From an uncultured Clostridia bacterium (lineage in GTDB: Bacteria; Bacillota; Clostridia; Christensenellales; CAG-917), in the NCBI GenBank assembly GCA_944363035.1, contig CALVTS010000007.1, forward strand, positions 25,101 to 89,100: a stretch of 64,000 nucleotides of DNA, written 5' to 3'. Of this stretch, positions 14,837 through 41,929 are shown one piece after another. The notes under the pieces were generated by a model. That model worked only from the letters and a program-made list of their open reading frames with translations, did not search any database and had not been told where the DNA came from. The position numbers and the translations under genes are program-made. Every line of letters begins with the position of its first letter. Within the stretch, counting starts at the first letter, position 1.

Positions 14837-15081
14837 CAAACTTCGGGAGGCAGTTCTTTCAAAAACATCACTCCTCTTGTATGCACGTCGGAATAGGAGA
14901 AAGTGCGCACCTCGCCGCTTTCAAGTCTCACCGTGAAAACGGCGGGGAACACCGCGACTATGCTCCCTTTCAGCAACGTGCTTTTCCCCCGTCCTTCGCT
15001 CACTTTCATGATGAGGGAAAGTCCTCTCAGTTTTTCCACCCTCTGTTTTGCTTCGCCTATCCCTTTGCCTATCTCTCGCAT
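14836..15081 (-). CDS. veg: Veg family protein
   Basis: This 81-residue protein aligns over its whole length with Bacillus Veg: a short helical N terminus, the basic GRGKSTLLKGSIVAVFPAVF core (corresponding to NGGRRKTIERSG...YPSVF) and a terminal strand VRTFSYSDVHTRGV. Veg is an abundant Firmicutes protein associated with biofilm-gene induction and spore outgrowth; its mechanism is not settled. The start has no strong Shine-Dalgarno but full-length homology supports it. It is transcribed away from the SipL-like gene. Confidence 0.85.
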   Translation of the reverse strand: MREIGKGIGEAKQRVEKLRGLSLIMKVSEGRGKSTLLKGSIVAVFPAVFTVRLESGEVRTFSYSDVHTRGVMFLKELPPEV

Positions 15082-15201
15082 GAAGGGAGCATTACCATGC
15101 GCGCGCGTTTTTATACGGGACGCGCGAGCCTTCCTCCGAAGAGAACGAGAGGAATATCCCGCTCCTCCCGCGCATATGGTGTTGAGGAATTGGAGGCGAC
15201 T

Positions 15202-29143: not shown

Positions 29144-30580
29144 ATGCAAAAGGATAACAAGTTCGTAAAAGAGATCGCGGACATGAAAGAGGATTTTCCT
29201 CAGTGGTACACCGACGTCATCTTAAAGACGGAGCTCGTCGATTACGGCCCCGTCAAAGGCACGATGGTCATCCGTCCCTACGGCTACGAGATCTGGGAGC
29301 ACATTCGGGAGGAACTTGACCGCCGCTTCAAGGCGACGGGGCACAAGAACGCCTACTTCCCGATGTTCATCCCCCTGAGCTACCTCATGAAGGAGGCGGA
29401 GCACGTGGAGGGATTCGCGCCCGAAGTCGCGCTGGTCACCCATGTCGGCAACACCGAACTCGAAGAAAAACTCGTGGTGCGCCCCACCTCGGAGACCATC
29501 ATCTGCGATATGTACTCCAAATGGGTGCAGAGCTATCGCGACCTCCCTCTTCTCATCAACCAGTGGGCGAACGTCGTCAGGTGGGAAAAGACCACCCGTC
29601 CCTTCCTCAGGACCAGCGAGTTCCTTTGGCAGGAAGGGCACACCCTCCACGCCACCGAGGAGGAGGCGAGAGAGGAGACCCTCAAAATGCTGGAAGTCTA
29701 CCGTGAGTTCATGCAGAACGTCCTCGCCATCGAGGTGCTTACGGGCATCAAGACGGAAAAGGAGAAGTTCGCGGGAGCGGTGGAGACCTACACCATGGAA
29801 GCCATGATGCTGGACGGCAAATCCCTGCAATCCGGCACCTCGCACTTCCTCGGCAAAAACTTTGCTTCCGCATTCGAGATCAAATATCTCGACCGCGACG
29901 GCAAACTCAAAAATCCCTATCAGACGAGCTGGGGAGTGTCCACCCGCCTCATCGGCGCACTCATCATGGCGCACGGCGATCAGCGCGGGCTCAAACTTCC
30001 TCCCCGCGTCGCGCCCGTCCAGGTCGTCGTCATCCCCGTCGCCCAACACAAGGAGGGCGTGCTAGAAAAGGCGCGCGAGATAGCCGAGCTCCTCCGCAAA
30101 GCGGGCGTGCGCGTGGAAGTGGACGAAAGAGATCAGTCCGTGGGCTGGAAGTTCAACGAATGGGAGATGAAGGGCGCCCCCCTCCGTCTCGAAATAGGTC
30201 CCCGCGATATAGAAAACGGCGTCGCCGCGTTCTCCCGCCGCGACACCCACGAGAAGGGTGCCCTCGCTCTTTCCGACCTCGCGTCAAGCGTTCCCGCTCT
30301 CCTCGACGACATCCACGAGACCATGTACCGTCAGTCCTCCGAGTTCCTGCACTCCCACATCGTGACCTGTCACGACATGGCAGAGTTCAACGAGGCTCTC
30401 GACAAGCAATGCTTCGTCAAAGCCATGTGGTGCGGCTGCCGCGAGTGCGAGGACGCCATCAAAGCCGAGACCGCCGCTTCCGCCCGCGCCCTTCCCTTCG
30501 ATCAGACCCCCGTCGGCGACACCTGCGTGTATTGCGGGAGGCCTGCGAGGCACACCGTGGTCTTTGCCAAAAGCTACTGA
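29144..30580 (+). CDS. proS: Prolyl-tRNA synthetase, archaeal/eukaryotic-like type (ProS type 3)
   Basis: The 478-residue class II synthetase lacks the editing insertion of the long bacterial form and has a C-terminal zinc-binding extension (Cys at HIVTCHD, MWCGCREC and CVYCGRPA), as in the archaeal/eukaryotic type common in Clostridia. Class II motifs are visible: VKGTMVIRPYGYEIWE (motif 1), RTSEFLWQEGHTLHAT (motif 2) and SWGVSTRLIGALIMAHGD (motif 3). It charges tRNA-Pro. The ribosome binding site is weak, suggesting coupling to the zinc-ribbon gene. A long structured hairpin begins at the base after the stop codon. Confidence 0.95.
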   Translation: MQKDNKFVKEIADMKEDFPQWYTDVILKTELVDYGPVKGTMVIRPYGYEIWEHIREELDRRFKATGHKNAYFPMFIPLSYLMKEAEHVEGFAPEVALVTHVGNTELEEKLVVRPTSETIICDMYSKWVQSYRDLPLLINQWANVVRWEKTTRPFLRTSEFLWQEGHTLHATEEEAREETLKMLEVYREFMQNVLAIEVLTGIKTEKEKFAGAVETYTMEAMMLDGKSLQSGTSHFLGKNFASAFEIKYLDRDGKLKNPYQTSWGVSTRLIGALIMAHGDQRGLKLPPRVAPVQVVVIPVAQHKEGVLEKAREIAELLRKAGVRVEVDERDQSVGWKFNEWEMKGAPLRLEIGPRDIENGVAAFSRRDTHEKGALALSDLASSVPALLDDIHETMYRQSSEFLHSHIVTCHDMAEFNEALDKQCFVKAMWCGCRECEDAIKAETAASARALPFDQTPVGDTCVYCGRPARHTVVFAKSY

Positions 30581-30712
30581 ACGCCGCCATTTGGCGAACT
30601 GCTGTGTCAAGCGCCTGCGGTCTGAACAGTCACGTACGACCAAGTACGCTCCTGTCCATCCCGCAGGCACTTTCCTTGCATTTCATCCAAATGGCGACGT
30701 TTTCAACAAGCG
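30581..30712 (+). repeat. Long double-stem hairpin (repeat D), copy behind proS
   Basis: It begins right after the TGA. Outer stem CGCCATTTGG (30585-30594) pairs with CCAAATGGCG (30687-30696), with AACG/CGTT continuing it; inner stem GCCTGCGG (30613-30620) pairs with CCGCAGGC (30661-30668). The core contains CACGTACGACCAAGTACGCT. The same plan with different stem bases follows rpsR. There is no T tract, so it is not an ordinary terminator. Confidence 0.7.
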
Positions 30713-30861
30713 TTAGGAATGGGCGCAGAACTTTGTCAGCGCCCTTGTCGTGGATGCTCACGTACGTCTTAGTACGCTCCCGCGTCGCGGTACGCGCCGA
30801 ACTTCGCAAAAGCCGCTCATATGAGCGGCTTTCACTTTGCCCTTGCGCGCCCGCTCCTTTT

Positions 30862-30907
30862 CCCCACAAAGTGTCCTCACTTTGTTGCGGTACTTTGCGG
30901 GGACCCC
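30862..30907. repeat. Small palindromic repeat E, copy 1
   Basis: Starts CCCCACAAAGT and ends ACTTTGCGGGGACCCC, so the arms pair; copies 2 (30916-30961), 3 (36707-36744, opposite orientation) and 4 (39681-39711) share the CCCCAC / GGGGACCCC ends but have different inner arms. Confidence 0.65.
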
Positions 30908-30915
30908 GAATATTA

Positions 30916-30961
30916 CCCCACAAAGTGTCCTCGCTACGCTGTGGTACTTTGCGGGGACCCC
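30916..30961. repeat. Small palindromic repeat E, copy 2
   Basis: Same ends as copy 1, 8 nt after it, with changes only in the loop region. Confidence 0.65.
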
Positions 30962-31184
30962 GTAAGCAGGGGCGCTTTCGCGTTCTGCATCCAAATGGCG
31001 CCTTTCAGCGTATAGGCGTTGGAGCGGGCGAATAGCGTGTCAAACGCCTGCGGTTTGAACAGTCACGTACGGCCAAGTACGCTCCCGCGTCGCGGTGCGC
31101 GCCGAACATTGCAAAAGCCGCTCATCTGAGCGGCTTTCACTTTGCCCTTGCGCGCCCGCTCCTTTTCCCCACTCTCACGTACAC

Positions 31185-32225
31185 TTGTTTGTAGCGTGCT
31201 TGAATCCCACGTGAACTTATTCGAAGACGGTTTCACGCGCCGCTCACCCAAACTTGCACAGCGGGCGTTTGCGCCCGCTCTTGCAAGTCGCGGCGCGTAT
31301 CTGCGATCTCGCAAGCTAGACGAAAAATTAAGTAGACACGGGCTCGGTGCGCGTCGAGTCGCCCTCCTCGCCCCGCGAGCGACGTTCAGTTGATACTGGT
31401 ATCCGCTTGATTATGTGAGTGCGAGACTCAAACCTTTTTCAAGAGGTGTTTTCATAAAGGCGCGGTTTGCGCCTTTATGAAAAAGTATATCCCGCATTTT
31501 AGGAGGAGCGAACTCTATTCCGAGTGGGGGAGGAGTCCCGAAGGGAGGAGGGGGCACAATATTACCATGTTAGGGGACGTAAACCAAAAAAATTAGCCCC
31601 GAGTACGACTACAGCTTTATTCGAAGGAAAGTACCCTGTCCACGGGTGCGTAGCGTAATTATTTTTACCCCACGCGAAGTAGAGGTGTGTCTTAATCCAA
31701 AAACAAAGAAATATTATTGCCCCGTACTGTGGGTTTTCGTCGTTTTCAAGCGCACTCTCTCATGCTGTACGTCTCGCGGGTGAATGTTGGCTCCCCCTCC
31801 TTCCCTGCGGGCTTTCCTCCCCCGTGTCCGAACGAGTTCAGTCCCCGCATCATGCGGGACTGACTTCGCATTCCTACAAAAGTTTTTTATATCGCACTCA
31901 CATAATCAAGCGGAGACCTGCACTTGCTGATGACCCGGCACGGGAGGAGGAATTCGGCGCTCGCAAGTTAAAGCCCGTGTCTTTTTAGGTTTACGGCGTT
32001 GCTCGGCACTCAGGAGAACGCGCCGCGACTTGCAAGAGCGGGCGCAAACGCCCGCTGTGCAAGTTTGGCTGAGCGGCGCGTAGTTCCGTCTTTGAATAAG
32101 TTCACATGGGGTTCAAGCTCCACCCCGAATGAGTGCACGTGGGAGTCAAGCTCCACTTCGAACAAGTGCACAGCGGCAGTCAAATATACCCCCGAACAAG
32201 TGTGCGGCGGGGGTTCGCAAACATA
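31185..32225. mobile_element. Non-coding ~1 kb element C, copy 1, with long inverted ends
   Basis: The left end carries minus-oriented and the right end plus-oriented units of a degenerate 32-bp repeat (core GAATAAGTTCACGTGGGA). Inside these, GCCGCTCACCCAAACTTGCA plus a GCGGGCG hairpin (31228-31300) recurs inverted at 32024-32075, and CCGCTTGATTATGTGAGTGC (31407-31426) recurs inverted near 31896-31915. The arms are thus about 230 bp, around 450 bp of unique sequence. No transposase frame is present. Homologues lie at 36800-37832 and 39020-40255. Confidence 0.7.
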
Positions 32226-32315
32226 AACTGCCCATTGTTTTAATATCAAATTAACACACAAAAACGCACTTTAACGTGCGTTTTTGTGTTTATCAACCAT
32301 ATTTTTTGCGTGAAA

Positions 32316-33536
32316 TTACTTTTTCTTGGCTTCGTCAATCTCTTCGTCCGTCCAGCCGTCGCCGTTGACGGTCTGGTCCGCTTCGCGTTCCGTGGTGAAG
32401 GTCATCTCGCCGTTTTCGTCCACGGTGAGGAGGATGTTGCCGTTGTTGTCCGTGCGGTAGATGGTCATCCCGTCCTCGATGAGGCGGTCGAGAGTGTTCT
32501 GGCGGGGGTGATAGAATGTGTTGCCCTCTGCGTTACAACTTATTATGGCGTATTCGCAGTCCACCGCGTCCAGGAATTCCTCGGTGGAGGAGGTCTCGCT
32601 GCCGTGGTGTCCCACTTTGAGGACGTCGCAGTCTATGTATCCCGCGCGCTCGACAAAGAGGGGCTCGTTGATCTCGTTGCTGTCACCCGTCAGCACGACG
32701 CGCACGCCGTTGTATTCCAGAATACCTATGGGGGAGATGGCGTTTTTGTATTCAGCTTCAGAAAAACCGTTCGCGGCGTTAAACCCCGTTTCTTCGTAAT
32801 ATTCCTCGGTGGGGCAGTAGAATGTGAGCATATAAGTCGCGTCCGCGTATGAACCGTCCGCCTGTTTCGTGCCGTCCGTTATCACTATGGAATTGGTGTC
32901 CTCGTCGGGATCGACGGTGAGGATCACCTCGCAATCGGGCTCCGAAAGCGCGGCGATGAAGAACTCGGCGTATGCGTTACTGTCCACCGTATCCTCATCC
33001 GTGAACATCCCCACTTTGCTTTGGTCGAGGGCGTCTATCTCCGCCTGCAATCTGTCGCTGGATTGCGTGCCGCTCGGCTCGGCAAGCACGTTGGGCATGA
33101 AGACGGTGTCCACGTCATATTTTTCCAGCACCTCATCCATGAAATAAACATGGTCGCCGTCACAGTGCGTGAGCATGAGGTAGTCAAGTTGCCCGTCCGT
33201 AACATAGTTGTCTATGTAGGCGAGGATTTTCGTGCGGTATGAGGAGGCATTGTTGTAATTCGCGCAGTCGATGAGCATATCCTTGCCGTCGGGGAAGAGG
33301 ATGAGGATGCTGTCGCCCTGTCCCACGTCCATGAAATGCACCTGCAATTCGCCCTCGCCCGCAACGAGAGGAGGTCCGTCATCGGCGGACGTGTCTCCGC
33401 CGGGGGAGGAGGCGAGTTTCCCGAAGATGTCGGGCGCGACGAAGTAGACTATGACTGCCGCTATCGCCAATATCGCGATGACGGCGATGATGAATATTGC
33501 CGATCTCTTGTTAGATTTTTTGGATCTTCCTGCCAT
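32316..33536 (-). CDS. MBL-fold hydrolase of the ComEC C-terminal type, membrane-anchored
   Basis: The 406-residue protein has one N-terminal transmembrane helix (about 12-34) and a metallo-beta-lactamase fold domain outside: VHFMDVGQGDSILILFP, then LMLTHCDGDHVYFM (the HxxxDH-type metal motif) and VLKVGHHGSETSS. This arrangement is that of the ComEC-like competence domain found as separate secreted proteins. An insertion of about 100 residues interrupts the domain after the metal motif. It may cut extracellular nucleic acid or another phosphodiester; no comEC or comEA is in the window. ATG 33536 has no ribosome binding site and lies 6 nt after TATAAT, suggesting a leaderless message. Confidence 0.85.
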   Translation of the reverse strand: MAGRSKKSNKRSAIFIIAVIAILAIAAVIVYFVAPDIFGKLASSPGGDTSADDGPPLVAGEGELQVHFMDVGQGDSILILFPDGKDMLIDCANYNNASSYRTKILAYIDNYVTDGQLDYLMLTHCDGDHVYFMDEVLEKYDVDTVFMPNVLAEPSGTQSSDRLQAEIDALDQSKVGMFTDEDTVDSNAYAEFFIAALSEPDCEVILTVDPDEDTNSIVITDGTKQADGSYADATYMLTFYCPTEEYYEETGFNAANGFSEAEYKNAISPIGILEYNGVRVVLTGDSNEINEPLFVERAGYIDCDVLKVGHHGSETSSTEEFLDAVDCEYAIISCNAEGNTFYHPRQNTLDRLIEDGMTIYRTDNNGNILLTVDENGEMTFTTEREADQTVNGDGWTDEEIDEAKKK

Positions 33537-33542
33537 ATTTTC

Positions 33543-33610
33543 ATTATACCTCATTATCCGTTTTCGCGCAACGCCGTATTCTTTTGCGCTCGCGCGCAAA
33601 GTGTGGTATA
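33543..33610. promoter_or_regulatory. Divergent promoters of the MBL gene and mrnC, both apparently leaderless
   Basis: Minus strand: TTGCGC, 17 nt, TATAAT (33548-33543), ATG 6 nt later. Plus strand: TTGCGC (33582-33587), 17 nt, TATAGT (33605-33610), ATG 8 nt later. The distances leave almost no 5' leader and no room for a Shine-Dalgarno on either side. Confidence 0.55.
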
Positions 33611-33618
33611 GTGGTCTC

Positions 33619-34050
33619 ATGAAGGATTTTCGACACGCCGTATTTTCATTGTCGGCTCCCGTCGCGGAGGAGGAGGCATACGCCATGCACCCGATGTCTT
33701 TGGCATTTGTGGGCGACGCGGTGCAGTCTCTTTTCATGCGCACGGCGGTGGCGGAGGCAAACGGCGGCAAGACGGGCGCCCAGCACCGCGAGGTGACGGG
33801 AGTGGTCAACGCGGTGGCGCAGGCGGCGGCGAGCGCGCGCATATCCCCCCTCTTCGACGAGAGGGAGGCGGACATCTTCCGCAGGGCGCGCAACTGTCAC
33901 ATCCAGACCTCCGCCAAGCACGCCGAAAGGGCGGAATACAGGCGCGCCAGCGGGCTTGAGGCGGTGCTCGGTTATCTTTTCCTCACGGGCAAGACCGAGA
34001 GACTGACCCGCTTTTTGACCATGGCGGCAGAGGAGGACGAGGGATGCTGA
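33619..34050 (+). CDS. mrnC: Mini-ribonuclease 3
   Basis: The 143-residue protein is a lone RNase III catalytic domain without a dsRNA-binding domain. MHPMSLAFVGDAVQSLFMRT near the N terminus corresponds to the signature helix with the catalytic Asp, and EYRRASGLEAVLGYLFLTGK carries the second acidic group (E...ALE-type). MrnC matures the ends of 23S rRNA. It begins the mrnC-rlmB-sigH run typical of Firmicutes; cysS, the usual upstream gene, is missing here. The stop overlaps the rlmB start. Confidence 0.9.
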   Translation: MKDFRHAVFSLSAPVAEEEAYAMHPMSLAFVGDAVQSLFMRTAVAEANGGKTGAQHREVTGVVNAVAQAAASARISPLFDEREADIFRRARNCHIQTSAKHAERAEYRRASGLEAVLGYLFLTGKTERLTRFLTMAAEEDEGC

Positions 34051-34766
34051 TATATGGCAGGAATCCCGTGCGCGAAGCCTTTCGCGCCGGCAAGACGGCA
34101 GAAAAGATATTTTTCCTCAAAGGGGAGAGGGACGCAAGACTTTCCGCGCTCTTTTCGGAGGCAAAGGAAAAGGGCGTGCCCGTCGAGTATGTCGAGCGCG
34201 GGGTGCTGGACCGCATGACGGAGGGCGGCAATCATCAGGGCGTCGCGGCTCGGGTGACGGACTTTGCCTACTCCTCGTTGGAGGACATCTTCGCGTGCGC
34301 CGAAGAGAGAGGGGAGAAACTGCTCATAGTCTTGCTGGACGGCATCACCGACCCTCACAATTTCGGCGCGATAGTGCGCAGTGCGGAGTGTTTCGGCGCG
34401 CACGGCATAGTCATCCCCTCCCGCAGGAGCGTGGGCGTGACAGAGACGGTCGTCAAGGTGGCTAGCGGCGCCACAGAGCATATGCGCATCGCGAAAGTCA
34501 CCAACATCAACGATACGATAAGAGAGCTTAAAGAGCGCAATGTGTGGGTTTATGCGTGCGATTTCGGCGGTAAACCTCCGAAATGCGCGGATCTCAAGGA
34601 TAACACAGCGCTCGTCGTAGGCAGCGAGGGCACGGGGGTGCACCGCCTTACGAGGGAGCTTTGCGACGGCGTCGTCACCATCCCCGAATACGGCAAGATC
34701 AATTCTCTCAACGCTTCCGTGGCGGCGGGGATAGTGCTTTACGAGACGGCGAGGCAGAGGGGATGA
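34044..34766 (+). CDS. rlmB: 23S rRNA (guanosine-2'-O)-methyltransferase, SpoU/TrmH family
   Basis: The 240-residue protein joins a short substrate-binding N domain (MLIYGRNPVREAF) to the SPOUT knot domain with the three family motifs: LDGITDPHNFGAIVRSAECFGAHG, LVVGSEGTGV and IPEYGKINSLNASVAAGI. It uses S-adenosylmethionine to 2'-O-methylate rRNA. It overlaps mrnC by 7 nt and sigH by 4 nt. Confidence 0.93.
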   Translation: MLIYGRNPVREAFRAGKTAEKIFFLKGERDARLSALFSEAKEKGVPVEYVERGVLDRMTEGGNHQGVAARVTDFAYSSLEDIFACAEERGEKLLIVLLDGITDPHNFGAIVRSAECFGAHGIVIPSRRSVGVTETVVKVASGATEHMRIAKVTNINDTIRELKERNVWVYACDFGGKPPKCADLKDNTALVVGSEGTGVHRLTRELCDGVVTIPEYGKINSLNASVAAGIVLYETARQRG

Positions 34767-35374
34767 AAGCATACGATTCTTTCACGGATGCGGAGCTCGC
34801 TTCGGCGGCGCAGAGGGGGGACGCCCTTGCAGAGAGCGCGCTCGTCAGGCGTTACGCCGCGCTTGCCGAGGGGTTGTCCCGCTCCTATTTTTTGGCGGGC
34901 GGAGACAGCGACGACCTCAGGCAGATCGCTCTCATCGCCCTGCTCGAAGCGGTGCGGAGCTATTCCGCCGATAGGGGAGCGGAGTTCAAGACCTATGCTT
35001 CCGCGTGCGTGCGCAACCGTATCTCGGACGCGATAAGGAGCGCTTCCGCCGTCAAAAATTCCGCTCTCAACAACAGTCTCCGTCTGGACGACGAAAGAGC
35101 GAAGGAGGGAGGCGTCGCGGTGGAGGACATCGTGTCTCCCGAGCTTTCGCCCGAACAGCAGTACATCATGAAAGAGGCGGAGGAGGCTTTTTTCGACGCG
35201 CTGGGCGAGACTTTGGGGGAAAAGGATCTCGCCGTCATCAAGCTGTACCTCGCGTGTATGCCCTATAAGGAGATATCCAAAAAGCTCGGGATGACCGCAA
35301 AGCAGGTGGACAACACTCTCTATTACGCAAAAAAGAAGATCGCAAAACTGCTTTCCGACGTCAAAGAGCCGTAG
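34763..35374 (+). CDS. sigH: RNA polymerase sigma factor SigH
   Basis: The 203-residue sigma-70 family factor has region 2 (DDLRQIALIALLEAVRSYSADRGAEFKTYASACVRNRI) and region 4 (LACMPYKEISKKLGMTAKQVDNTLYYAKKKIAKLL). The context downstream of mrnC-rlmB is that of SigH, which drives early stationary and sporulation genes. It is slightly shorter than the 218-residue Bacillus protein. It overlaps rlmB by 4 nt (ATGA). Confidence 0.92.
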   Translation: MKAYDSFTDAELASAAQRGDALAESALVRRYAALAEGLSRSYFLAGGDSDDLRQIALIALLEAVRSYSADRGAEFKTYASACVRNRISDAIRSASAVKNSALNNSLRLDDERAKEGGVAVEDIVSPELSPEQQYIMKEAEEAFFDALGETLGEKDLAVIKLYLACMPYKEISKKLGMTAKQVDNTLYYAKKKIAKLLSDVKEP

Positions 35375-35454
35375 ATATCCCTCGGTTTTTCTTTTTCAAG
35401 AGCCGCGAGTTTCCGCATCTTTTCGAGATCGCGAAAAAAATTGTTGAAAAGTCT

Positions 35455-35483
35455 TTGACTTTAATTAGTTTATATATTATCAT
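35455..35483 (+). promoter_or_regulatory. Promoter of rpsF-ssb-rpsR
   Basis: TTGACT (35455-35460), 17-nt spacer, TATCAT (35478-35483). Confidence 0.8.
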
Positions 35484-35488
35484 TATCA

Positions 35489-35552
35489 AGCGATTCCGCA
35501 GGAGCGGGATCTTAGTCCTTCCCCGCAAGGGGCATCAAGTCCAAAAGGAGGT
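35489..35552 (+). promoter_or_regulatory. Structured rpsF leader, possible S6:S18 autoregulatory element
   Basis: The 74-nt leader can form GATTCCGC / GCGGGATC and CCCCGC / AGGGG stems before AAAAGGAGG. Leaders at this place in many bacteria bind the S6:S18 complex; the assignment here is by position and general form only. Confidence 0.4.
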
Positions 35553-35557
35553 AAGCT

Positions 35558-35836
35558 ATGAATAAGTACGAGATCCTGTACATTATTCGTTGCGACATCG
35601 AAGATGACCGCAAGACTCAGGTCGTCGAGAAGTACAATGCGCTCGCCGAGAAACTCGGAACTTTGGAAGCCACGGACATCTGGGGCATGAAAAAGTTCGC
35701 CTACGAGATCGACAAGCAGACGGAAGGCTACTACGTTCTCATGAACGTGGAGTGCGACGCCGCGGCGCAGGCTGAGATCGACAGACAAATGGGCATCGAC
35801 GACAATGTCGTAAGAAGAATGATAGTCAAAAAGTGA
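35558..35836 (+). CDS. rpsF: 30S ribosomal protein S6
   Basis: The 92-residue protein begins MNKYEILYIIRCDIEDD and contains IWGMKKFAYEIDKQTEGYYVLMNVECD, the standard S6 pattern (GxRxLAYxIxKxxxGxY), with W-G-M-K-K-F variation. It binds S18 on the 30S platform. Strong AAAAGGAGG ribosome binding site; first gene of rpsF-ssb-rpsR. Confidence 0.96.
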   Translation: MNKYEILYIIRCDIEDDRKTQVVEKYNALAEKLGTLEATDIWGMKKFAYEIDKQTEGYYVLMNVECDAAAQAEIDRQMGIDDNVVRRMIVKK

Positions 35837-35869
35837 CCATCGCAATCCAGGCAATTTAAGGAGTCAGAT

Positions 35870-36253
35870 ATGAACAAGGTGTTTTTGATTGGCAATCTCA
35901 CGAGAGACCCCGAGCTGTCCACCACCTCCGGCGGCGTCAAGTTCTGCCGCTTCACCCTCGCCGTTTCCAGGTCCTACGCCAAGGACGGCAAGCGTGAGAC
36001 GGACTTCCTGCCCGTCATCGTTTGGAGAGCTCAGGCGGACAACTGCGCCCGCTATCTCAAAAAGGGTAGCAAGGCGGCAGTCAGCGGTTCCGTGCAGACC
36101 AGGACCTACGACACCCAGGACGGGACCCGTCGCTATGTGACCGAGATCGCCGCCGACGAAGTGCAGTTCCTCTCCACCCGCAGCGAGGAAGCGAGAGAAA
36201 ACGACGCCGAGTTTGACGACCTCACTCCCATCGACGACGACCTGCCTTTCTAA
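35870..36253 (+). CDS. ssb: Single-stranded DNA-binding protein
   Basis: The 127-residue OB-fold protein starts MNKVFLIGNLTRDPELSTT and has FLPVIVWRAQADNCARYLKKG and the conserved aromatic positions of bacterial SSB. The C-terminal tip FDDLTPIDDDLPF is the acidic peptide that recruits replication and repair enzymes. The linker is unusually short. Confidence 0.96.
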   Translation: MNKVFLIGNLTRDPELSTTSGGVKFCRFTLAVSRSYAKDGKRETDFLPVIVWRAQADNCARYLKKGSKAAVSGSVQTRTYDTQDGTRRYVTEIAADEVQFLSTRSEEARENDAEFDDLTPIDDDLPF

Positions 36254-36271
36254 AATCAAGGAGAATTGAAA

Positions 36272-36520
36272 ATGAGTGAAGAAGTAAAAGCTCCGCGCCC
36301 TCTGAAGAGAGCGCCCAAAAAGAAAGTTTGCACCTTCTGCGTCGAACACGCAGAATCCATCGACTATAAGGATGCCGCCAAGCTCCGCCGTTTCACCACC
36401 GAAAAAGGCAAGATCCTCCCCCGCAGGATGAGCGGCGTCTGCGCCAAGCATCAGCGCCTGCTCGCGACCGCCATCAAGAGGGCGAGGGTGATGGCGTTGC
36501 TTCCTTACAAAGCCGACTGA
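36272..36520 (+). CDS. rpsR: 30S ribosomal protein S18
   Basis: The 82-residue basic protein has [62 protein letters not shown], the S18 core, including Cys residues of the zinc-binding (C+) form (CxxC and later CxxH). ATG 36272 is preceded by CAAGGAGAA. A long double-stem hairpin (repeat D) begins at the stop codon. Confidence 0.96.
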
Positions 36521-36640
36521 AAGGCGCTATTTCGCGAATAACTGCGTCAACGCCTCCCATACGACCGTTTACGTACGGAAAGTACGCTGCGCGCCCGTAT
36601 GGGAGGCGTTTCCTTGTTCTTCATCGAAATATCGCCTTTC
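36519..36640 (+). repeat. Long double-stem hairpin (repeat D), copy behind rpsR
   Basis: Outer stem GAAAGGCGCTATTTCG (36519-36534, starting inside the TGA) pairs with CGAAATATCGCCTTTC (36625-36640), one mismatch; inner stem AACGCCTCCCATACG (36549-36563) pairs perfectly with 36596-36610. The core ACGTACGGAAAGTACGCT matches that behind proS, while the stems differ and compensate. Confidence 0.75.
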
Positions 36641-36800
36641 AGCGTATAGGGGTAGGAGCGGGCGAATAACTGCGTCAACGCCTCCCATACGACCGCTTAC
36701 GCACACGGGGTCCCCGCGTGAAAATCTTTGATTTTCGCGTGGGGCAAAAAGTACGCCGCGCGTCCGCAGAAGCGGGGCTTTCGCGCTCTTCATCAAGGAG
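36641..36800. repeat. Degenerate repeat D copy interrupted by E hairpin 3
   Basis: GGAGCGGGCGAATAACTGCG and CAACGCCTCCCATACGACCG repeat the left half of the D element; then E copy 3 (36707-36744) interrupts the core, after which AAGTACGCCGCGCG resumes it. This suggests that E inserted into D. Confidence 0.55.
36707..36744. repeat. Small palindromic repeat E, copy 3
   Basis: GGGGTCCCCGCGTGAAAATC with the pairing arm GATTTTCGCGTGGGG; opposite orientation to copies 1 and 2, with different inner arms. Confidence 0.65.
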
Positions 36801-37832
36801 CGTGCTTGAACTCCCACGTGAACTTATTCGGGGTGTACTCGAATACCACGTGCACTTATTCGAAGACGGAACTACGCGCCGCTCAGCCAAACTTGCACAG
36901 CGGGCGTTTGCGCCCGCTCTTGCAAGTCGCGGCGCGTATCTGCGATCTCGCAAGCTAGACGGCTATTAAGTAGACACGGGCTCGGTGCGCGTCGAGTCGC
37001 CCTCCTCGCCCCGCGAGCGACGTTCAGTAATTACTGGTCGCCGCTTGATTATGTGAGCGCGAGACTCAAACTTTTTTCAAGAGGTGTTTTCATAAAGGCG
37101 CAGTTCGCGCCTTTATGAAAAAGTAAGTCCCGCATTTTAGGAGGACAGTCCTCTATCCCGAGTGGGGGAGGAGTCCCGAAGGGGAGGAGGGGGAGCAATA
37201 CTTCCATTTCAGGGGACGTAAACTCCATTAAACTAGCTTGGGCACGACGTGAACTTAGTCAGAGCGTCCCCGAACACGACGAATAAGTGTGCGTGGGGTT
37301 CAAGCTGATTTAATTTGGGTTTACGTTCTCTAACAGGGAAATATTGTTGCCCCCTTCCTGCGGGTTTCCCCCAAAATCGTTCCCCCTTGAAAGGGAACCC
37401 ACCATTTTGGGGGAAACCTTCGGCGCTCGGGCATAAGGGCTACCGAGGACGGCGCCTCTGCGGCGCCGCCATGTTATGCCGCTTGCAATGCGCCCGCTTC
37501 GCGAAGAGAGTGGCGCATTGCCGACGCACTTTGCGTCTCGCCCTCGGCACTCACTTCGTCGCCGCCGACTTGCAAGAGGGCTACGCCCTGTGCAAGTTTG
37601 GCTAGGCGGCTCCACTCCGAATGAGTGTACGTGGAAATCCAGCACACCCCGAAAAAGTGCACGTCGTGTTCAAACACGCTTCGAATGAGTATGCGTGGGA
37701 GTCAGGCACACCCCGAAAAAGAAACGTAAAGTTCAGGCTTCACTCCTAATAAGTATACGTGGGGTTCAAACACGTCTCCGAATGAGTTCACGTAAAGTTC
37801 AAACACTCTCCAAATAAGTTCACGTGGGAGTC
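36800..37832. mobile_element. Non-coding ~1 kb element C, copy 2
   Basis: The left 430 bp closely match copy 1 (GCCGCTCAGCCAAACTTGCA at 36880, AAGTAGACACGGGCTCGGTG at 36969, hairpin TTCATAAAGGCGC...GCGCCTTTATGAA at 37091-37120). The right part carries GACTTGCAAGAGGGCTACGC and then six or seven plus-oriented 32-bp units up to the acyltransferase 3' end. The middle differs from copy 1 but matches copy 3. No coding frame is supported. Confidence 0.7.
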
Positions 37833-37854
37833 ATTCCCCCCCCCTCCGCCATGT

Positions 37855-38982
37855 TCACGGAGCGGGGCAGTTCTCTTTTGTTTTCGCTCGGGTGACGATG
37901 CGTCTGAATATGTCTGCGGCAAACGTCGTAAGGGCACGGCGCAGGAATTCGAATGCGGCGCATACCGCGAATGTTATGACGGCGAATGAGATAATGATGA
38001 GGAATGAGGCGGGCAGGTCGTACAACTGCGAACAGTGGAAGATGTTTTCGTACATGAAAGAGCGCATTTCGGGGCTGTCGTGGATGAGATAGACGCCGAA
38101 TGTCAGCGGAGAGACAAAGCAGATGATTTTTGAGAGACGTTCGTTTTTTATGTTGAGATGTTTGAACGCGAGGAAAACGTAGACTGCCGAGAGGCAGACA
38201 GGGGCGGAAGAGTATTTGAAGGAGACGAACTGTCCCGCAACTATTGTTGCGGCATAAATGATGCCGCCTATCACGACCTTTGTACGGGTGAGGCGCACGT
38301 CGCGCAGTCGCAGATATGCCGCGATCACGTACAGACAGCAGAACCACACCGCATTATAGCCGCTGGAGATGCCCGTCGTATTGAATATATGTGCGTCTGC
38401 GGCGAGTTCTGCGGCGACCAGGATGAGCAGACAGAGGACGAGGTGACTGCGGCGGGATATGTTGCGCAACATAGCGTTCAGAAATGGGGACAACACCAGC
38501 ATGACGATGTACGCGCTGAAAAACCAATATTTTTCTTTCAACGTGGGAAAGAGAGTATTCAACAGACCGTCATCGGTATAAGGGATGGTGTCGGTCGCGG
38601 CAAACACCGTAAAAAGCAATACGCTGTAAAAAAAGACCTGCCCCCACAGTTTTGCCACTTTGCGCACATTGACGCGTTCGGATGTCGAGGTGCAGAGGAA
38701 GTAGGCGCTGATCATCACGAAAAGATTGACGGACGGCAGAAAAAATGCGCTGAACAGACCGATGAACACCGCATTGACTTCGTTGGTCACACCGCTTTCC
38801 CACCCGCCGTGACCGATGAAATGATGCCCTACGATGAAGAACATACATACGATGCGCAGGAGCTCAAAGGATGCATTGCGCCGCGGTTTTGCGGGAGAGG
38901 GCAATGGCGGGTTGATCACGATCCCATCTTCTCGCTCGGCAGAGATAGCAGTATTATTATCCATATAAAACTTATATACCAT
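37855..38982 (-). CDS. Acyltransferase family 3 membrane protein
   Basis: The 375-residue protein has about ten transmembrane helices and the acyltransferase-3 start NASFELLRIVCMFFIVGHHFIGHGG, whose His pair is the likely active site; LHNTLFPTLKEKYWFFSAYIVMLVLSPFLNAML-type sequence follows. Such enzymes O-acylate cell-surface sugars using a cytosolic acyl donor. It stands alone, its 3' end meets the right end of element C copy 2, and its 5' side meets the left end of copy 3, with no partner genes. ATG 38982 and ATG 38964 are both possible; neither has a clear ribosome binding site. Confidence 0.87.
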   Translation of the reverse strand: MVYKFYMDNNTAISAEREDGIVINPPLPSPAKPRRNASFELLRIVCMFFIVGHHFIGHGGWESGVTNEVNAVFIGLFSAFFLPSVNLFVMISAYFLCTSTSERVNVRKVAKLWGQVFFYSVLLFTVFAATDTIPYTDDGLLNTLFPTLKEKYWFFSAYIVMLVLSPFLNAMLRNISRRSHLVLCLLILVAAELAADAHIFNTTGISSGYNAVWFCCLYVIAAYLRLRDVRLTRTKVVIGGIIYAATIVAGQFVSFKYSSAPVCLSAVYVFLAFKHLNIKNERLSKIICFVSPLTFGVYLIHDSPEMRSFMYENIFHCSQLYDLPASFLIIISFAVITFAVCAAFEFLRRALTTFAADIFRRIVTRAKTKENCPAP

Positions 38983-39680
38983 CTAATAAAATAATGCAAT
39001 ACATTCGCAGAAATAATAAGCCGAATGATATAGTGTCCCCGAACACGACGTAAACTTATTCGGCGCGCGCCTGATTCCCACGAATACTTATTCGGAGAGT
39101 GCTTGAATCCCACGAACACTTATTCGGAGCGTCTTTGAACACGACGTGCACTTATTCGAAGACGGAACCACGCGCCGCTCACACAAACTTGCACAGCGGG
39201 CGTTTGCGCCCGCTCTTGCAAGTCGCGGCGCGTATCTGCGATCTCGCAAGCTAGACGGCTATTAAGTAGACACGGGCTCGGTGCGCGTCGAGTCGCCCTC
39301 CTCGCCCCGCGAGCGACGTTCAGTCTATACTGGTATCCGCTTGATTATGCAAGAGCGAGACTCAAACTTTTTTCAAGAGGTGTTTTCATAAAGGCGCGGT
39401 TTGCGCCTTTATGAAAAAGTAAGTTCCGCATTTTAGGAGGAGCGAACTCTATCCCGAGTGGGGGAGGAGTCCCGAAGGGGAGGAGGGGGAGCAATACTTC
39501 CATGTTAGGGGACGTAAACTCCATTAAACTAGCTTGGGCACGACGTGAACTTATTCAGAGCGTCCCCGAAAACGACGTATAAGTGTGCGTGGGGTTCAAT
39601 CTTATTTAATTTGGGGGGGGTTACGTTCCCGCGACAGGGAAGTATTGTTGCCCCCTTCCTGCGGGTTTCCCCCCAATTTA

Positions 39681-39711
39681 CCCCACCGAAAATACTTTCG
39701 GCGGGGACCCC
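39681..39711. repeat. Small palindromic repeat E, copy 4
   Basis: CCCCACCGAAA-ATAC-TTTCGGCGGGGACCCC with self-complementary inner arms; inserted in element C copy 3 relative to copy 2. Confidence 0.6.
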
Positions 39712-39763
39712 GCTCGTTCCCCCTTAAAAGGGGACCCACCATTTTGGGGGAAACCTTCGGCGC

Positions 39764-39842
39764 GACGCGATTGACACTTCGCGTAACAATCGCTGGACCT
39801 GATGAGACGCGATTGACACTTCGCGTAACAATCGCTGGACCT
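39764..39842. repeat. Two direct copies of a 37-bp sequence, period 42
   Basis: GACGCGATTGACACTTCGCG and the following 17 bases occur at 39764-39800 and again at 39806-39842. Each copy can fold GCGATTG with CAATCGC. Copy 2 of element C lacks both. Confidence 0.75.
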
Positions 39843-40039
39843 TCGGTTCGGGCATGAGGGCTACCGAGGACGGCGCCTCTGCGGCGCCGCCATGTTATGC
39901 CGCTTGCAATGCGCCCGCTTCGCGAAGAGAGTGGCGCATTGCCGACGCACTTTTCGTCTCGCCCTCGGCACTCACTTCGTCGCCGCCGACTTGCAAGAGG
40001 GCTACGCCCTGTGCAAGTTTGGCTGGGCGGCTCCACTCC

Positions 40040-40253
40040 GAATAAGTTCACGTCGTGTTCAAGGACGCCCCGAATAAGTATACGTGGGAGTCAAGCACGC
40101 CCCGAAAAGGAAACGTAAAGTTCAGGCTTCACTCCTAATAAGTATACGTGGGAATCAAACACTCTCCGAATAAGTGTTCGTGGGAATCAAGCACTCTCCA
40201 AATAAGTTCACGTGGGAATTAGGCTTCGCTCCAAATGAGTGAACGTGGAGTTG
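40040..40253 (+). repeat. Tandem array of degenerate 32-bp repeats
   Basis: About six head-to-tail units, for example around CGAATAAGTATACGTGGGAG, CTAATAAGTATACGTGGGAA and CGAATAAGTGTTCGTGGGAA, without spacers between them. The inverted counterpart is at 39045-39165. Confidence 0.7.
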
Positions 40254-40267
40254 ATGCGTTTATAATG

Positions 40268-40298
40268 ACAAAACCGCGCTATGATGGCGCGGTTTTGT
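40268..40298. terminator. Terminator of the second GPH transporter gene
   Basis: A 12-bp stem (ACAAAACCGCGC / GCGCGGTTTTGT) with A/T ends, 27 nt beyond the minus-strand stop codon. Confidence 0.8.
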
Positions 40299-40324
40299 GT
40301 GGTTTAACTTTGGATCGTGCGACG

Positions 40325-41929
40325 TTATAGTTTCGCTTTTATGCGCATGAGGGCTTCTTCGCGGGTGATGTCGCCGGCGTTGCAACGCATCATGATCTTG
40401 ACGTCGCGGTCTTTCAGGCGGTAGAGTTGCAGGATGAGGAAGGCGATGAAGTTGCCTACAAGAGGCACCACTATGCAGGTGAACCACAAGCCGTCTATCG
40501 CGGCGGGGGTCTGAGTCACTCCTTTTTCGGCGAGCTCTTTGAAGCTGGCGGCTCCGCCTTCTATCTCATGCCATCCGAAGAGACCGATGAGGAAGAGCCC
40601 CAGCGAGCCTTGGAGGGCGCCCGTGATCTTTGCCATCAGGGTTTGCAGGGAGAAGGTGATGCCCTTGGCGTCTATGCCCGTTTTGAACCTGCCGTATTCG
40701 GCGCAGTCGGGGGTGAACATGAACAGCAGGACGCTGGTGACGCCCGTGGATATTGCGTTTGCGACCGAGAGCCCGATGTATGCGCCCACATTGCCTTTTG
40801 CGAAGAGGAATATGAGCAGATTTATCCCCACCGTGATGAGCAGACAGGTCTTGTAGAGGGTGATCTTGCTGATGCGTCTCAGAAGATAGGGCACCGCGAA
40901 GGACGCCACCGCGAAGGGGACGGTGGTGATGAGCCCCACGTAGAACACGACGAGTTCGTTGTTGAAGACGTAGAAGGACATGAAGAGTTGCAAAGACCCC
41001 AGCACACTGCATCCCGACGAGAAGAGGAAGGCTATGTAGTAGATGAGCAGATATTTGTTGGAGAACAGATATTTGAACATCCTGCGCAGGGTGAATTTCT
41101 CCTCCGACGGGGGAGGCAGAGTGCGCTCCTTGCCCAGGAAGCAGAAGGGCACCATGAATACGAATGCGATCACGGAGCCGAGTATCGCGACGTAGAAATA
41201 GCTCATGCCCACGGACTGACTGACAAGCACCATGGCGAGGAGGCCTGCGATGCCGCCGCCGGCGGTGCCGCACAGACCTTTGACAGAGAGCATCTTCTCG
41301 CGCTCCCCGAAATTGTTGGAGAGCACGGTGACCACGCCGTGTATGGGCGCGTCGCAGAGGGTGTAGGCGCAGTCGTGGATGAGATAGGCGATGGCGAGCC
41401 AGGCAAGCTGCGCCGCCTCGGGGATGTTTGCGGGTATGGCGTACAGCAGGATGACGGAGATCGGGATCGCGACCACGGACATCCTCAGCCACGGCATGAA
41501 TTTGCCGCCCTTTAATTTCAGTTTGTCGAACAGCGCGCCGAATATGGCGTCGTTGAAGGCGTCCCAGATCTTGACCAGCAGGAGCACGAGAGCGACTTTG
41601 TCCCCGTCCATGCCCTGCAAGATCGCAAAGGTGGTGAGATAGACCGAGACGAGAGAGTAGATGAGGTTCTGTCCCGCGAAATAAGTGTAATAGCTTATCT
41701 TTTCCTTGCCCGGGACCTCATTCCCCTTTTGCCCCAGCCCGAGCAGATCCATCACGCCTTTTACGGCGCCTTTGCCCGCGCGCACGAGCGCGTTGCCCGT
41801 CTCGGGAGGAGCCTCTCCCTCATACGTCCACGCGCTGTCCGCGAAATCGAAATCCTCTCCGCCGCCCGTTGCGTGGAGTTCGGTCTGCCCCGCCTCGGCG
41901 GGAGACACGATCAAATCTTTGTCATCCAT
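40325..41929 (-). CDS. GPH-family sugar transporter (MFS superfamily), second copy
   Basis: The 534-residue protein has 12 predicted helices preceded by an ~80-residue cytosolic N-terminal extension, acidic at first, not found in the first transporter. The family segments are KISYYTYFAGQNLIYSLVSVYLTTFA, KIWDAFNDAIFGALFDK and LIHDCAYTLCDAPIHGVV; the DAFND motif matches the WDGINDP motif of the other one. Percent similarity between the two is low. No glycosidase is adjacent, so the substrate is open. Monocistronic, with its own terminator. Confidence 0.9.
   Translation of the reverse strand: MDDKDLIVSPAEAGQTELHATGGGEDFDFADSAWTYEGEAPPETGNALVRAGKGAVKGVMDLLGLGQKGNEVPGKEKISYYTYFAGQNLIYSLVSVYLTTFAILQGMDGDKVALVLLLVKIWDAFNDAIFGALFDKLKLKGGKFMPWLRMSVVAIPISVILLYAIPANIPEAAQLAWLAIAYLIHDCAYTLCDAPIHGVVTVLSNNFGEREKMLSVKGLCGTAGGGIAGLLAMVLVSQSVGMSYFYVAILGSVIAFVFMVPFCFLGKERTLPPPSEEKFTLRRMFKYLFSNKYLLIYYIAFLFSSGCSVLGSLQLFMSFYVFNNELVVFYVGLITTVPFAVASFAVPYLLRRISKITLYKTCLLITVGINLLIFLFAKGNVGAYIGLSVANAISTGVTSVLLFMFTPDCAEYGRFKTGIDAKGITFSLQTLMAKITGALQGSLGLFLIGLFGWHEIEGGAASFKELAEKGVTQTPAAIDGLWFTCIVVPLVGNFIAFLILQLYRLKDRDVKIMMRCNAGDITREEALMRIKAKL

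Follow-up and report, generated by a model that had tools for sequence, protein, structure and literature searches.

What kind of unit are the three non-coding blocks of ~1 kb that lie close together on contig CALVTS010000007.1 of an uncultured Clostridia bacterium (assembly GCA_944363035.1)? The stretch analyzed, called the window here, covers 64,000 nucleotides of that contig (positions 25,101 to 89,100), and an earlier note made from its letters had offered a non-autonomous mobile element, a large structured RNA or a family of recombination targets as explanations. We consider it probable that the blocks are paired half-elements of one family with conserved base pairing, that each half-element is likely a gene for a structured RNA of 270-400 nt, and that the family is a non-autonomous mobile repeat whose spread would depend on a helper encoded elsewhere. 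The RNA part of this reading comes from compensatory changes in long-range pairing, in which G·U pairs and tandem G·A steps occur. The mobile part comes from copy number, restricted host range, unoccupied sites and mosaic arrangements, from which we infer that the copies move.

Layout of the three blocks

The blocks proved to be real copies at nearly the coordinates first given (copy 1, ~31166-32220; copy 2, ~36800-37836; copy 3, ~39030-40257). Each ~1-kb non-coding block consists of two half-elements of ~0.4 kb arranged tail to tail: X on the left in all three, paired with Z in copy 1 and with Y in copies 2 and 3, the right halves Y and Z being diverged relatives of X on the opposite strand. 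X contains, in order, hairpin A, B, a T hairpin and the C motif, and a long-range helix, H3, links the pyrimidine tract of B to the purine tract of C. The left block that the earlier note had seen in all copies was recovered as an ungapped run of 228 nt that is 91% and 94% identical to copy 1, besides which more blocks aligned, and X of copies 1 and 2 was 94% identical to that of copy 3 over 351-359 positions. As also described before, units of a 32-bp repeat are inverted at the two ends, with arrays facing outwards on both sides of all three blocks. The core GAATAAGTTCACGTGGGA named for the unit is one version of the consensus CTCCGAATAAGTGTACGTGGGATTCAAGC. Among open reading frames of at least 80 aa, judged by length, none was long, the maximum being 149 aa on the minus strand of copy 3 and 111 aa at the same place in copy 2.

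The features are listed below with strand and basis; R1 is the covariance model described in the next section.

31166..31226, minus strand: left array of copy 1, two 32-bp units facing left (sequence comparison)
31227..31585, plus strand: half-element X of copy 1, with hairpin A, B, T hairpin and C motif (R1 match 31282-31552 (+), E 0.0063)
31236..31297, plus strand: hairpin A of X, copy 1 (alignment offsets read on the sequence)
31364..31380, plus strand: 5' strand of predicted helix H3, copy 1 (sequence and alignment pairing)
31449..31483, no strand given: T hairpin of copy 1, 15-bp stem (sequence)
31520..31535, plus strand: 3' strand of H3, copy 1 (sequence and alignment pairing)
31754..32090, minus strand: half-element Z of copy 1, tail to tail with X (R1 match 31796-32034 (-), E 1.4e-10)
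32090..32220, plus strand: right array of copy 1 facing right, two clear units and then degenerate ones (sequence)
36812..36865, minus strand: left array of copy 2, two units (sequence)
36866..37224, plus strand: half-element X of copy 2 (R1 match 36921-37190 (+), E 0.0012)
37002..37018, plus strand: 5' strand of H3, copy 2 (sequence and alignment pairing)
37158..37173, plus strand: 3' strand of H3, copy 2 (sequence and alignment pairing)
37237..37305, no strand given: central back-to-back unit pair, copy 2 (sequence)
37340..37615, minus strand: half-element Y of copy 2 (weak R1 match 37350-37487 (-), E 0.064)
37615..37836, plus strand: right array of copy 2, six or seven units (sequence)
39044..39161, minus strand: left array of copy 3, four units (sequence)
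39162..39520, plus strand: half-element X of copy 3 (R1 match 39217-39486 (+), E 0.0012)
39171..39232, plus strand: hairpin A, copy 3 (alignment)
39298..39314, plus strand: 5' strand of H3, copy 3, including the G-A of the tandem G·A/A·G step (alignment)
39383..39417, no strand given: T hairpin, copy 3 (sequence)
39454..39469, plus strand: 3' strand of H3, copy 3; the conserved purine-rich C motif runs on to ~39489 (alignment and sequence)
39533..39601, no strand given: central back-to-back unit pair, copy 3 (sequence)
39640..40036, minus strand: half-element Y of copy 3 (weak R1 match 39651-39827 (-), E 0.053)
40036..40257, plus strand: right array of copy 3, six or seven units (sequence)

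Base pairing conserved in two genera

Pairing was counted in two alignments. A2, from the genus of the window, held 45 copies of six genomes and was drawn from 63 references, themselves picked from 85 copies; counts over the 85-copy set drop none of those copies. A1, from the sister genus, held 16 of the 18 distinct copies matching full-length patterns, with L224 and L249 excluded for inserts; truncated, interrupted or other-subtype copies (e.g. L223, L227, L237, L240, L250, L252 and L254) were also excluded.

In A2, 96.9% of the 1570 cells of hairpin A and H3 were paired and 14 pairs carried two-sided changes; 0/500 shuffles reached the observed number of paired cells, two-sided changes or covariation score. 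In A1, 95.6% of 365 cells were paired, with two-sided changes at 11 pairs; 6/500 shuffles matched the two-sided changes and 0/500 the paired cells or the score. Controls with slid partners gave 37-57% paired cells in A2 and 38-55% in A1, a comparison in which the counts lean towards our structures because these were drawn from the same alignments. Over all 85 copies, the cells of hairpin A comprised 1872 Watson-Crick, 28 G·T, 11 A·C and 35 other combinations.

The changes are clearly visible in single pairs of H3. Pair 199-353 was GU in 20, AU in 13 and GC in 12 of the 45 copies of A2, and a standard pair in 85/85 of the larger alignment. In the sister genus the layout of H3 is unchanged and its letters differ, with TCTCCC/GGGAGA in one subtype and CCCCTCCCG/CGGGAGGGG in another; in a second hairpin of that genus, H2, 7/9 pairs were changed on both sides. 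In an automatic screen for compensatory pairs many pairs mirrored the split between X and Z, and only pair 148-319 was kept, because it is consistent with H3. H3 of A2 also contains a tandem G·A/A·G step, present at its first place in 35/45 and at its second in 34/45 copies; in rows without it, ten Z-type ones included, the first place was G-C (10) and the second C-G (7) or C·A (4). In the sister genus, tandem G·A steps occur in both H2 and H3, and each of the four positions of two such steps was occupied by G·A or A·G in 13-15 copies out of 16.

The covariance model R1 was built from A1 alone, and its E-values are rough. Against the window it matched Z (E 1.4e-10) and the three X (0.0012, 0.0012 and 0.0063) on the predicted strands, and it matched Y weakly (0.053 and 0.064), again on the predicted strands. 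R1 also matched L223, L227 and L237 of the sister genus, which lie outside A1. Another window match, at 14964-15084 (-) with E 0.12, is probably due to chance. Support for the large structured RNA that the earlier note had considered therefore consists of covariation in two genera and of a model from one genus that finds the other, and the RNA itself stays predicted.

The sense of the wobble pairs favored the strand running from A to C (GU 39 versus AC 6 in A2; GU 14 versus AC 0 in A1), and the molecule that folds is likely the RNA of this strand. We infer that the A-to-C strand is transcribed and, from compensatory changes in long-range helices that include G·U pairs and tandem G·A steps, that the folded molecule is RNA rather than single-stranded DNA. 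The same strand was the G-rich one in 39/49 copies of X (p 4e-5). Relative to their two flanking genes (n=42), X copies were co-oriented with both in 9 cases, with one in 21 and with none in 12. The orientation of X follows GC skew, taken as replication direction, and not gene direction.

Copies in the genome and its relatives

The genome to which the window belongs (G000) is 1.6 Mb in 30 contigs. The search for further copies that the earlier note had proposed found them both there and in relatives. Copy 3 as a query gave 240 matching pieces in G000, and 41 X blocks of at least 120 bp were present in the fetched stretches of this genome, the three of the window included; an HMM search found 38 in a partly different set of stretches. 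X occurs singly, as direct tandems (X-X) or paired with Y or Z, and nested mosaics were also seen. Contigs C5, C13, C18, C19, C20, C22 and C23 of G000 end inside elements, so the copy numbers are probably lower bounds.

Across genomes, the X block was matched in 11/60, the own one included, with weak matches in G001, G020, G032 and G057 (best E 1e-3 to 3e-6) and none in G003 and G006, which are of the same genus. The C motif (29 bp, up to 3 mismatches) was found in 14 of 43 family genomes, where a control pattern had no match; 7/10 genomes of the own genus and 7/20 of the sister genus (g4) were carriers, with up to 66 sites in one genome, and the motif was absent from G001, G003 and G006 of the own genus at the same threshold. 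In an order-wide set, 13/396 genomes had the motif and the control had one match in all. The sole such genome outside the family, G356, has a single site with 3 mismatches and is probably a chance match. The exact pattern of the C motif had no match in viral contigs, nor had X of copy 3 in plasmids or phages.

Copies within one genome resemble each other in most genomes. Median identity within genomes was 0.89 in G000, 0.91 in G007, 0.90 in G008, 0.86 in G009 and 0.83 in G002, and between genomes it was 0.63-0.81.

The 32-bp units were also widespread. A weight matrix found 275 units in the fetched genome stretches and the window, and 0 on one strand of one 64-kb mononucleotide shuffle. Genome-wide, GAATAAGTNNACGTGG with up to 2 mismatches had 277 sites versus 14 for the reversed control pattern. 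Tn7-like elements and Mu carry multiple site-like repeats at their termini, in inverted orientation, and the earlier note had likened the arrays to Tn7-like ends. The inverted multi-site layout agrees with this; the number of units per end, however, ranges from 0 to 8 across copies, and the A end of the copy at L071 has no array, so the ends do not carry a fixed set of sites. Also unlike those ends, the blocks of the window hold no cargo gene, and no fixed outer end was found.

Other repeats were seen near the elements. Hairpins of ~120-130 bp form a second family (window 30560-30700, 36526-36640 and 36660-36800; also L097, L107 and L127), with ends such as GGCGTCATTTGG / CCAAATGACGCC and inner ACGTACGG..AAGTACGC; their arms seem to co-vary between copies, and the 32-bp arrays frequently adjoin pieces of them. 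Palindromes of GGGGACGGGG...CCCCGTCCCC often lie just past the C end of X or Z in G005 and G009 (L106, L114, L091, L087 and others). In the window, the stretches 30758-30867 and 31063-31172 are 94% identical and have a terminator-like AAAAGCCGCTCAT..ATGAGCGGCTTT; copy 1 begins where the second breaks off, and a similar junction was observed in L072 and L082.

Weighing the readings

Several results weigh against mobile half-elements that encode structured RNAs. Beyond the lean in the pair counts noted above, further pair types were not above shuffles (259/500 in A2, 500/500 in A1), and Y is the weakest member of the family. The mismatches of the T hairpin, AC 11 versus G·T 1 with nine of the 11 at one position, favor the other strand there, and the fold-energy z-score of a window copy was better on the minus strand (-6.2) than on the plus strand (-4.8). 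Promoter-like sites (7 versus 5.0 expected) and terminator-like sites (13 versus 11.2) in 30900-40400 were near expectation. As for spread, copies of G005 (0.778 within) were no more alike than they were to those of G008 (0.789) or G000 (0.799), and those of G004 were hardly more so (0.755 within versus at most 0.750 to others). Eleven own sites were testable, having both flanking genes at most 2 kb apart on contig 1 of G005. Six of these were filled in G005 as well, some with another subfamily, indicating that much of the pattern is inherited; the other five had no family match. Four of the five were read for ends and target duplications, and none aligned at the junction, being too diverged. 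The flanks of copies vary, and an outer end could be guessed only at L079, inside a 32-bp unit. At the L054 and L069 sites, the flanking genes of G005 are separated by 1.5-1.9 kb of other sequence, so "empty" means only that no family match is present.

A non-autonomous mobile element is backed by copy number, by homogenization in most genomes and by filled and unfilled sites, but the target duplications and precise outer ends looked for in the G005 comparison were not placed. Nor was a transposase with the same arrays found, as the earlier note had suggested looking for. The searches for a mobilizer covered reverse transcriptase, TnpB, IscB and IS110 in the 43 family genomes, 14 of them carriers, and RAYT in a set that included 12 of the carriers; no search was aimed at DDE transposases or further recombinases. 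RAYT was the strongest candidate and promising at first, being present in 6/7 motif carriers and 0/3 non-carriers of the own genus, and the RAYT gene of the own genome sits between two X copies. It was dropped because 5 of the 12 motif carriers searched (G007, G020, G024, G026 and G031) lack it, leaving 7/12, and because RAYT has palindromes of its own, of the GGGGACG(T/G)G... type, at its flanks in G000, G005, G002 and G009. Reverse transcriptase (RVT_1), at 2/14 carriers, does not track carriers. TnpB reached the cut-off in 0/14 carriers, with TnpB-type matches below it in G035 and G066; IscB reached it in 0/43 genomes, with one weak IscB-type match below it in G003; IS110 was found in 0/43. 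In the own genome the RAYT gene (L136 3394-4161; C1:192893-193660) encodes a Y1 transposase of RAYT-like type (PF01797) that has an HTH at its C terminus. A 1334-aa open frame at L267 (G003 C11) has a weak RRXRR match below the cut-off and is perhaps Cas9 by its length; that genome is without the family.

The filled sites shared with G005 lend themselves to another explanation, in which X, Y and Z are a resident, beneficial RNA or DNA family, for example chromosome-organizing or termination elements, that is inherited in place, kept alike by gene conversion and immobile. The likeness of copies within most genomes and an orientation that follows GC skew agree with it as well. It does not account easily for the five sites without a family match in G005, for the absence of the motif from G001, G003 and G006 and of X matches from G003 and G006, or for tandem X-X and nested mosaics, and we regard it as unlikely. 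The acyltransferase gene beside copy 2 has X next to it in G005, a Z-like match in G008 and none in G002, where the next gene differs. This comparison and the shared and unfilled sites suggest that sites are partly inherited and that their contents turn over.

A different account of the folding has single-stranded DNA as the folded molecule: X, Y and Z would be REP-like elements of giant size, and an HUH (Y1) transposase, for example the own RAYT, would move them by acting on the lagging-strand template. We think this unlikely. The skewed orientation of X, the nearly complete Watson-Crick pairing of stem A (1872/1946 cells), the distribution of RAYT in the own genus and its position between two X copies all fit, and GGGGACG is common to many C ends and to the palindromes beside RAYT. 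However, no RAYT was found in G007, although its copies are 91% alike, or in the four other carriers named above; no X match was found in the 5-8-kb stretches around RAYT in G005, G009, G002, G004 and G008; and the RAYT flanks hold their own palindromes. Tandem G·A steps and long-range helices are also more usual in RNA.

Under the reading that we favor, of paired half-elements encoding structured RNAs and spread by a helper, the A-to-C strand would be transcribed along the replication fork, and the resulting RNA, with H3 and its tandem G·A step at the core of the fold, would bind a protein. That protein, or one recruited by it, would recognize the outward-facing 32-bp repeats in DNA and copy or move the unit to intergenic sites elsewhere. 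The X-Y, X-Z and tandem X-X mosaics would then arise by recombination between copies, which would also keep the copies of one genome alike. A bolder version, which we hold to be quite unlikely, is an RNA-only transposon: a protein-less element whose folded transcript would guide a host or helper enzyme to the 32-bp end repeats and insert in step with the replication fork, forming a mobile class distinct from REPINs, MITEs, introns and omega-RNA elements.

Drifted satellites with chance hairpins and no function, which would suit the varying number and sequence of the array units and the copy without A-end units, are highly improbable, this reading being largely refuted by compensatory changes over 45 and 16 copies and by the cross-genus match of R1.

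No Rfam family matched the elements credibly. At the gathering score, Rfam gave two tRNAs only in the window; at E up to 10 the best match in 31100-40300 was Leu_leader, not credible at 29.4 bits when its gathering score is 50; and in the sister-genus loci Rfam gave only a cobalamin riboswitch (RF00174; L240 1-124 (-), cut at the edge) near a copy. A description of the family was not found in the open-licence literature. By description, the nearest known kind appears to be the Lactobacillus plantarum supermotifs (LPSMs, Wels et al. 2009), which the passages describing them present as intergenic units of 800-1000 nt in many copies, stable, transcribed and cruciform, and as specific to one species (PMC5643018). 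Both are large, structured, multi-copy, lineage-restricted intergenic units. The likeness is one of description; LPSMs belong to other bacteria and to one species instead of two genera, and their transcription is reported where ours is predicted; those passages also make no mention of outward 32-bp arrays or replication-linked orientation, both features here (PMC5643018). The beta-proteobacterial repeat element (BRE) is likewise a repeat family and, according to the passages on it, is linked to expressed small RNAs, but it is ~90 bp long and reported not to be co-oriented with the replication fork (PMC3110155).

REPINs and BIMEs with RAYT share dispersed intergenic mosaics, inverted pairs and palindromes with this family, as well as a RAYT gene in the own genome. 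Their REPs are 20-40 bp, in contrast to half-elements of ~0.4 kb with a long-range helix, and here RAYT occurs in 7/12 carriers only, with X beside it only in the own genome among the stretches fetched. HEARO/omega-RNA and IS110 bridge-RNA are structured non-coding RNAs of mobile elements, with many ORF-less copies in some genomes; the present family differs in having no credible Rfam match, no IscB or IS110 found in the family genomes and no TnpB over the cut-off in carriers. For a group II intron or retroelement the corresponding enzyme would be a reverse transcriptase, which 2/14 carriers have.

To our knowledge, very few bacteria are known to carry tens of copies of a large structured RNA in each genome, and the role of such RNAs is not known. 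The family described here adds a multi-copy case with compensatory changes in two genera, no match in Rfam 15 and an orientation tied to GC skew. As carriers and non-carriers occur within one genus, the question of whether such a family is selfish or useful becomes directly testable.

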